Source: Halorubrum hochsteinianum (GTDB taxonomy: Archaea; Halobacteriota; Halobacteria; Halobacteriales; Haloferacaceae). From it: a stretch of DNA of 64,000 bases. The stretch spans positions 62,001-126,000 of the forward strand of contig NZ_CP098415.1 in assembly GCF_023702125.1 (NCBI RefSeq), written 5' to 3'. Each line of letters begins with the position of its first letter. The first letter of the stretch is position 1. The translations under genes and the position numbers were made by a program. This document shows positions 1 through 4,683 of the stretch, piece by piece. A model generated the notes under the pieces. It was not told where the DNA came from, did no database searches, and saw only the letters and a program-made list of their open reading frames with translations.

Positions 1-102
1 AGCGGGACCGCGCCGCGCCTGTCGAGAGCGCGGGCACGTGCGTCGGAAACGGCCCGACCGCCGGCGTTCGGCGATGCGTCGCGTCGGTGAGGAAGGGATG
101 GT

Positions 103-122
103 GTAGGGGATCAGACCCCTAC
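103..122 (-). promoter_or_regulatory. Perfect hairpin overlapping the leader ORF stop
   Basis: GTAGGGG and CCCCTAC form a perfect 7-bp stem around a 6-nt loop that contains the TGA of the leader ORF. The stem is GC-rich and is followed by pyrimidine-rich DNA without a clear T run. It could be an attenuator, a terminator or a translation-coupled switch; the sequence alone does not decide. Confidence 0.45.
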
Positions 123-185
123 AATGATCGGCGCGACGGCTGCGGGAACGTCCGCTCGCTCCGTGACCGCGGTGTGCCGTCGCAT
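111..185 (-). CDS. Candidate 24-residue leader peptide rich in Val/Ile
   Basis: An ATG at 185 opens a 24-codon ORF ending at a TGA at 113-111. The last twelve residues read VPAAVAPIIVGV, six of them Val or Ile. A TATA-like box sits about 27 bp before the ATG. The stop codon falls in the loop of a perfect inverted repeat whose first arm encodes the end of the peptide. This resembles leader peptides of attenuated amino acid operons. In other Halobacteria a LeuA-family gene is followed on the same strand by ilvB, ilvN and ilvC, so the controlled gene may be an ilvB just outside the window. That neighbour cannot be seen, and the ORF is short enough to occur by chance. Confidence 0.4.
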   Translation of the reverse strand: MRRHTAVTERADVPAAVAPIIVGV

Positions 186-210
186 CTCGCTCGGAGCAAC
201 GCGGCCGGGG

Positions 211-217
211 TATAAAT
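211..217 (-). promoter_or_regulatory. TATA-like box for the leader ORF
   Basis: Read on the minus strand this is TTTATA, about 27 bp upstream of the ATG at 185. That spacing is typical of leaderless haloarchaeal transcripts. It lies downstream of the LeuA-family gene that ends at 300, so it would drive a separate transcript leaving the window on the left. Confidence 0.5.
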
Positions 218-299: not shown

Positions 300-1521
300 T
301 CAGACCCGGACCTCCTCCTCGCGCGCCACGTCCGCCTCCTCGGCGAACCGCTCGACGTCGCCGGCCGTCACCCGCCGCTTGCCGGCTCCGTACTCCTTGA
401 CCCGCTTCGTGATCGACCGGACCTCGCCGTCCGTCGGGTCGAAGCCGGCCTCCACCAGGTGCTTGCGCACGCTGTGGGTGCCGGTGTGTTTACCCAGCAC
501 GAACTCGCGTTCGGCCCCGACCATCTCCGGGGTCATCACGCCGGTCTCGAACGTGTCGCTGTTCTCGATGACGCCGGCGGCGTGGATGCCCGACTCGTGG
601 GCGAACGCGTTCCGCCCGGTGACGGGCTTGTTCGCCGGGACCGGGATGTCCGAGGCCTCCTCGACGATCCGGGCCAGCTTGGTGATCTGGGTCGTGTCGA
701 TGCCGGTGTCGACGCCGTACACCGACTCGACGGCCATCACGACCTCCTCGTAGGCGGCGTTGCCTGCGCGCTCGCCGATCCCGTTGACCGACACCTGCGC
801 CTGCTCCGCGCCGTTCTCGAAGCCCATGACGGCGTTGGCCGCGGCCATCCCGAAGTCGTCGTGGGTGTGGACGTCGACGCGGGCGTCGGTCGCCTCGACG
901 ACGGCCGCCACGGTCTCGCCGAAGCTGGTCGGCATCCCGACGCCGCAGGTGTCGGGGATGTTGATCCAGTCGGTGCCCGCGTCGGACACCGCCTCGACGA
1001 TGTCGATCAGGTAGTCCGGGTCCGTCCGGGTCGCGTCCATCGGCGAGAACATACACTCGACGCCGGCGTCTTTCACCGTCTCGACGGCGTCGACCGCCCG
1101 CCCCTTCGCTTCTTCCCGGGTCGCGTGCATCGAGTCCTCCAGCTGAACGTCGCTGGTGGAGACGAACACGTGGACCATCTCGACGCCGGAGTCGATGGCG
1201 GCCTCGATGTCGCCGTCGACGACGCGGGCCAGCCCGCAGACGGTCGTGTCCGTCGCGGCGGCGATGTCGCTGACGGCCTCGAACTCCGCGTCCGAGTTGA
1301 CCGGGAACCCCGCCTCGATGACGTGGGTGTTCATGTCGTCCAGCGTCGCCGCTATGCGGCGTTTCTCGTCGTAGCTGAACGAAGTACGTGGTGACTGTTC
1401 TCCGTCTCGCAGGGTCGTGTCGAAGATCCTGACAGGACCGATTTCGACGTTAGAAGCTATCGTGCCCTGGAAGAACTCGATCCGCCGGGGTGTCCGACGA
1501 AGCCTCCGTGATGTCTGTCAT
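300..1521 (-). CDS. leuA: LeuA-family synthase (2-isopropylmalate/citramalate type), frameshifted near its N-terminus
   Basis: This belongs to the DRE-TIM metallolyase family that condenses acetyl-CoA with a 2-oxo acid in leucine or isoleucine synthesis. The body (about 1464 down to 300) shows IEFFQGT, FDTTLRDGEQSP at the catalytic site, the metal-binding HTHDDFGMAAANA segment, and ESGIHAAG. At about 400 residues it lacks the long C-terminal regulatory domain of bacterial LeuA, so citramalate synthase is an alternative. The body frame has no ATG, GTG or TTG before the catalytic motif. An ATG at 1521, with a TATA-like box about 26 bp before it, opens a haloarchaeal-looking N-terminus (MTDITEASSDTP) that is one base out of frame with the body. 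The shift falls around a CCCC run near 1481. Either the gene carries a one-base indel or the sequence has an error. Confidence 0.8.
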
Positions 1522-4460: not shown

Positions 4461-4683
4461 ATATGGCTATCGAGAATATTCAACCGCGACTATGATGTCT
4501 CGGGGTTATTTATTTTTCAGTAGTGATATCTGTTCACACGGGGTGTATCCGAGGTTTCGACCCCCTCTACCCGGCGAAAACGCGTTTAGGTCCCCGCTCC
4601 GGACGGTGACGAAGCCGTTCGGCTCGCGTTCCGTGTAGCGGACGATGTTGCTGGTTCGTCGGACCCGGACGACGACGCCGCGG

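Follow-up and report, generated by a model that had tools for sequence, protein, structure and literature searches.

Leader peptide and operon

Does a short reading frame rich in branched-chain codons, lying beside a leuA-type gene in a haloarchaeon, control an amino acid operon in the way of the bacterial attenuators? The original prediction for the window (the whole stretch of 64,000 nucleotides that was analysed, G000:C1:62001-126000) suggested so, and placed the target gene just outside the window. The contig segment G000:C1:52001-63600 (locus L007) was used to extend the sequence beyond the window, and an ilv operon was found to follow the leader on the minus strand as predicted. The minus-strand order was leuA (window position 300 upwards), the leader, ilvB, ilvN, ilvC, leuC, leuD and leuB, with the ilvB start at L007:9935 (window -65), about 176 nt past the leader stop. 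NCBIfam names ilvB and ilvN as acetolactate synthase large and small subunits, ilvC as ketol-acid reductoisomerase, and leuC and leuD as isopropylmalate dehydratase large and small subunits. For leuB (isopropylmalate dehydrogenase family) and for the predicted LeuA-family neighbour, whose gene at 300-1334 scored as isopropylmalate synthase, the names come from family-level models only, with scores below the curated cut-off.

The features of the locus are collected in Table 1. The TATA box and the ATG at leaderless spacing were recovered where they had been predicted, as was the 24-codon ORF with six Val or Ile among its last twelve residues; the start is probably leaderless. The control codons are rare: nine neighbouring genes of this genome contained GTA at 3 of 330 Val codons and ATT at none of 103 Ile codons. 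The extent first given to the feature, 103-217, was too short, as hairpin 1 (183-133) and a G-poor tract (110-86) also belong to it.

Table 1. Features of the leader and its upstream neighbour (window positions)
Feature	Position	Strand	Basis and remarks
TATA box TTTATA of the leader promoter	216-211	-	Sequence; first base 31 nt upstream of the leader ATG
Leader ORF, 24 codons, MRRHTAVTERADVPAAVAPIIVGV; ATG 185-183, TGA 113-111	111..185	-	Translation; probably leaderless
Control codons ATC-ATT-GTA (Ile-Ile-Val)	120..128	-	GTA and the preceding Ile conserved across loci
Hairpin 1: GCGACGGC (183-176) pairs with GCCGTCGC (140-133)	133..183	-	Fold; pairing compared to nulls
Hairpin 2: TGTAGGGG (123-116), loop TCTGAT with the stop codon, CCCCTACA (109-102)	102..123	-	RNAfold
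G-free C/U/A tract of 25 nt, from the end of the hairpin 2 loop to past the 3' arm	86..110	-	Sequence; possible site of termination or of FttA entry
leuA (2-isopropylmalate synthase family), upstream neighbour of the leader	300..1521	-	Leaderless ATG 1521-1519, out of the enzyme frame

Conservation of the leader upstream of ilvB

Searching genome contigs with IlvB yielded 80 loci from haloarchaea, the closest ilvB genes being those of Halorubrum relatives. Apart from two loci in which the contig ends at the gene, each of the 80 had a single GTAGGGG within the 480 nt preceding ilvB, and this lay in the frame of a short ORF. These scan loci were combined with loci from whole genomes into a set of 104. 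Since the added loci were chosen for carrying the motif, the independent observations in this set are the frame, the start distance and the stop, not the motif. The leader preceded ilvB in all 104 motif-bearing loci, and in every case an in-frame ATG without an intervening stop was found at leaderless distance, between the promoter and the structural gene. An AT-rich hexamer was located 31 or 32 nt upstream of this ATG in 86 loci and 28-36 nt upstream in the remainder. The ORF varied in length, always by whole codons (13-52 codons before GTA), and the untranslated spacer between leader and ilvB was long and variable (about 100-370 nt). Of the last nine codons, 53% encoded Ile, Val or Leu; the figure was 13% for more upstream codons and 22% and 2% for the two remaining frames.

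For statistics, 56 or 57 loci were picked whose leader regions differed by more than 25%. GTA was the Val codon in all 56 of these less-similar loci and was preceded by Ile in 55. The peptide ends in a conserved Ile-Val-Gly-(Ala/Val) written with very rare codons (ATT, GTA). Conservation was confined to approximately these last four residues; the N-termini were fully divergent between families (for example MRRHTAV..., MTVRASLS... and MNQHDARL...), indicating that the leader is not a conserved protein. A stand-alone functional micropeptide would account for the conserved ORF, but such divergence makes this reading hardly credible. The terminal IVG(A/V) beside the stop in most loci would also suit a nascent chain that arrests the ribosome in response to a free amino acid, as in TnaC, and not to tRNA charging. 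We consider such an arrest peptide highly improbable: the synonymous sites are conserved too (always GTA-GGG in the motif loci), which points to a constraint on RNA or codons, and the peptide itself is altered in the variants IRVRA, VVGAR, LVGAL and IVGPA and by C-terminal extensions of up to five residues.

Two hairpins and a G-poor tract

The TGA had been predicted to lie in the loop of a perfect 7-bp hairpin. The stop was indeed in the loop, while the stem comprised 8 bp by RNAfold, with a free energy of -14 kcal/mol in a 40-nt fold. The stop codon was within the hairpin 2 loop in 52 of 56 loci, although the loop varied in length. Compared to shuffled 3' halves, hairpin 2 gave a Fisher-combined p of 6e-32 (56 less-similar loci, with related loci treated as independent) and reached p<=0.05 singly in 31 of the 56. 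The Val control codon GTA is located in or beside the 5' arm, a geometry in which a ribosome on the control codons and the hairpin would exclude each other. The Val/Ile codons, the stop and the hairpin, for which an alignment of relatives had been proposed, were conserved in close and distant relatives alike.

Hairpin 1 joins the 5' end of the mRNA, start codon included, to the stretch immediately before the control codons. Pairing of the 5' end with the 3' end, in which 7 or more of the first 15 nt take part, was observed in 82% of 57 loci compared to 33-34% in the mononucleotide and codon-permuted nulls. The fold energy of hairpin 1 differed from the codon-permuted null with a Fisher p of 2e-23 (57 loci, related loci treated as independent), and its longest single helix showed a modest gain over chance (1e-4).

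In the 18 nt located 3' of the hairpin 2 3' arm, G made up 5% compared to 24% further on, and T made up 25% compared to 11%, an approximately twofold enrichment (56 loci). No bacterial U-run was found after hairpin 2, the longest T-run being 2 in this genome and at most 5 in the other loci. A mutually exclusive antiterminator was not found either: hairpins 1 and 2 do not overlap, and no competing conserved helix was apparent in four clade alignments. The leader and riboswitch families of Rfam, T-box included, gave no match at the gathering threshold to either strand of four ilvB loci.

Distribution and natural variants

Of the 292 genomes of the class, 280, from 72 of 77 genera, contained the pattern ATYGTAGGGGN(3-16)CCCC; these are presence counts, and adjacency to ilvB was checked in the fetched loci only. 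In this genome the core pattern, searched with a slightly narrower gap, occurred once, and no further leader copies were found. A phylum-wide draw gave scattered matches outside the class, at a rate of the order of that of a reversed-pattern control, and plasmid records gave no match. Some genomes contained extra, unrelated matches to the core pattern without ilvB nearby (for example L090, L109, L111, L113 and L118). On contig G264:C4, ATCGTAGGGGTCGCCCC was seen at 4607, 18684, 32761 and 56570, the first three copies at equal steps of 14,077 bases; this is apparently a large tandem repeat or an assembly effect, unrelated to ilvB.

As the invariant GGGG gives no covariation by itself, natural variants matter for hairpin 2, and the twelve class genomes without an exact match to the core pattern were looked at singly. 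L122 encodes IVGPA with GTAGGGCC...GGCCCTAC, a compensatory change that preserves hairpin 2. In L123 and L124 (genus g26), ATT CGC GTA is followed by a rebuilt GGGCC-loop-GGCCC hairpin and a stop, the loops differing between the two genomes. L127 carries the motif with the 3' arm CTCCC, and Ile is replaced by Val in L120 and L121 and by Leu in L128; a further locus, L062, likewise has Val for Ile. The locus of L126 is cut by the contig end. In L125 ilvB was present and no leader was seen, and in L129-L131 (families f5 and f11) ilvB was again present without a leader, the preceding gene running almost directly into it. The latter suggests that the leader was either acquired after these lineages or lost within them.

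Such variants also bear on whether the inverted repeat is simply the site of a transcription factor or RNA-binding protein, with the ORF incidental to it. GTAGGGG was identical in all motif-bearing loci and the repeat forms a clean palindrome in Halorubrum, as a protein site would. Yet the variants change the sequence and preserve the hairpin, the outer bases are lost outside Halorubrum, and the ORF frame was kept in 104 of 104 loci, leaving such a site with very little to recommend it. A DNA-palindrome reading of the repeat was rejected because its spacing and outer arms vary. GTAGGGG is more constant than the need for codons or pairing alone would explain, and an extra sequence-specific contact is possible.

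Proposed mechanism

From the anatomy and conservation described above, we propose that the leader is likely to act in cis on the haloarchaeal ilvBNC-leuCDB operon, as a ribosome-mediated attenuator that senses charged tRNA-Ile and tRNA-Val; the switching steps that follow are inferred. When these tRNAs are charged, the ribosome would reach the stop codon and depart, and hairpin 2 would close. With the ribosome gone, hairpin 1 would form and hide the leader start codon from further ribosomes, and the ribosome-free U/C-rich RNA would be terminated, either by hairpin 2 itself or by FttA/aCPSF1. When charging is low, the ribosome would stall on ATY/GTA, its footprint covering the 3' arm of hairpin 1 as well as the 5' arm of hairpin 2 and shielding the RNA, so that transcription would run on into ilvB. 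A stalled ribosome covers about a dozen nucleotides downstream; a ribosome at ATY/GTA should thus cover the 5' arm of hairpin 2. Since neither U-run nor antiterminator was found, the ribosome probably masks hairpin 2 directly. The predicted layout of translation-coupled attenuation therefore stands in its ilv operon, Val/Ile codons, stop and conserved hairpin, but not in its textbook U-run and antiterminator.

Of the transcripts of a Haloferax volcanii reporter, 59% were terminated by a natural hairpin, and archaeal terminator motifs include a T-stretch ending in TC or a hairpin upstream of the 3' end (PMC7237163). FttA, which binds and prefers U-rich RNA, is a proposed competitor of the ribosome for Spt5 and RNA polymerase (PMC11616081); PMC8116511 makes a similar proposal. 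Hairpin termination in H. volcanii together with the proposed competition between FttA and ribosome favours attenuation in which the ribosome itself is the antiterminator, and termination of the FttA type is inferred at the leader.

Control might instead be post-transcriptional, a stalled or terminating leader ribosome altering the stability or processing of the mRNA or access to the start of ilvB, with hairpin 2 being no terminator. Halorubrum lacks a bacterial-type U-run, and leader and ilvB are separated by a long spacer of variable length, as this would allow. However, no pairing of the leader with the ilvB start was apparent in four clade-wise alignment folds, and the G-poor U/C tract right behind hairpin 2 suits termination, which leads us to regard post-transcriptional control as unlikely.

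Comparison with known systems

The trp and ilv attenuators of E. coli combine a leader peptide that carries control codons with an early hairpin 1, followed later by a terminator hairpin. The haloarchaeal leader has the leader peptide, the control codons and the two-hairpin order in common with them. The E. coli leaders are in addition leadered, start at a Shine-Dalgarno sequence, and have a 2:3 antiterminator and a U-run, none of which was found in the haloarchaeal leader. As the textbook U-run and antiterminator were looked for and not found, we do not file it as an attenuator of the E. coli type, although it would work like one. In Rho-dependent leader-peptide attenuation (tna), the leader ribosome shields unstructured, G-poor RNA from the termination factor, and the signal is free Trp. 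Shielding of G-poor RNA by the ribosome is common to tna and the scheme proposed here, whereas the signals differ. The archaeal factor FttA is analogous, not homologous, to Rho (PMC11616081).

The ilvBNC attenuator of C. glutamicum (PMC11857589) shares with the haloarchaeal leader its target gene, a short leader peptide rich in branched-chain amino acids and a hairpin downstream of the control codons; a start codon one nt from the transcript start and control codons that include Val GUA are further likenesses. It is bacterial and uses three competing hairpins (terminator, antiterminator and anti-antiterminator), whereas in the haloarchaeal leader no antiterminator was found, the control codons lie inside a hairpin arm and the peptide sequence differs. 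We assume convergence. Short ORFs with runs of Ile, Val and Leu codons overlapping a candidate terminator hairpin also precede actinobacterial ilvB (PMC1262725). Poly-U runs are present there, and the likeness is one of layout, not of demonstrated kinship. In the Streptomyces ilvB leader, codon substitution was without effect (PMC1262725).

A transcriptome paper of 2014 stated that attenuators and riboswitches in archaea were without direct experimental support (PMC4247193). The parts consulted of later papers on haloarchaea and coupling (PMC8116511, PMC12186497 and PMC4983044) contained no archaeal attenuator. In agreement with the original prediction, no haloarchaeal case was found in the open-access literature. 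According to the H. volcanii start-site paper, 16 uORFs occur in long 5' UTRs, ilvB not being among the genes concerned (PMC4983044). Table 2 of that paper includes uORFs of 23 and 26 residues before tryptophan-tRNA ligase (HVO_A0127) and pheS (HVO_2948); these might be controls of a similar kind. No leader was seen before pheS in Halorubrum relatives and no leader ORF with promoter before trpD. A short ORF before a leuA paralogue in L002 was rejected as a similar leader, as its end is not rich in branched-chain amino acids.

A conserved frame break in leuA

The ATG of leuA opens a frame of 23 codons. A slip candidate, CTTC, was located at 1473-1470 within 1521-1450 (minus strand), and the same place was found in about 100 loci. 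An upstream ATG in the CGA-GTT-CTT frame was present, at varying distances, in 100 of 102 loci with the CGAGTTCTTC block, and in 54 of the 102 the enzyme frame had no ATG, GTG, TTG or CTG upstream of this block. In an alignment of 28 less-similar leuA loci, GTTCTTC served as the anchor and is therefore identical by choice, but the CGA beside it and the A-G-GGCAC that comes next were almost invariant. Downstream of the block the third positions of the enzyme frame varied most (1.26 bits compared to 0.85 and 0.78; 28 less-similar loci); upstream of it no frame stood out clearly. L122 has CTT-G, which keeps the Leu codon and changes the enzyme residue, and L127 has CGG for CGA, a substitution that is synonymous in the upstream frame only.

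In the nine neighbouring genes of this genome CTT accounted for 4 of 248 Leu, CCA for 1 of 169 Pro and GTT for 3 of 330 Val codons. The short ORF has a single Leu codon, this very rare CTT, within the near-invariant CGAGTTCTTC block. As the frame break recurs across the leuA loci, sequencing error was rejected as its cause. Pfeiffer and colleagues drew attention to the problematic start of HVO_1510 orthologues, with slippage as one option, and reported peptides upstream of Met-93; the start-codon problem of leuA was noted before, as an annotation issue (PMC8305020). The leuA case goes unmentioned in the portion consulted of a review of archaeal recoding (PMC8211752). We propose that a programmed +1 frameshift, which leuA seems to require, takes place at the conserved rare Leu codon CTT-C and is possibly sensitive to leucine. 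If this is true, synthesis of the enzyme would depend on leucyl-tRNA. That one operon might combine two ribosome read-outs, a leaderless attenuator terminated by FttA before ilvB and a +1 frameshift at CTT-C in leuA dependent on leucyl-tRNA, is a tentative suggestion that we think has rather less than an even chance of being right. In the open-access literature neither an attenuator of the ilvB type nor a +1 frameshift of the leuA type was found described for a cellular haloarchaeal gene.

Significance

If the proposed attenuator is real, control of an operon by the ribosome through tRNA charging would have arisen in archaea too, by means of a leader conserved in most genera of the class. The leader is present in the genetically tractable Haloferax and would offer a natural test of the mutual exclusion of ribosome and FttA on archaeal RNA polymerase.
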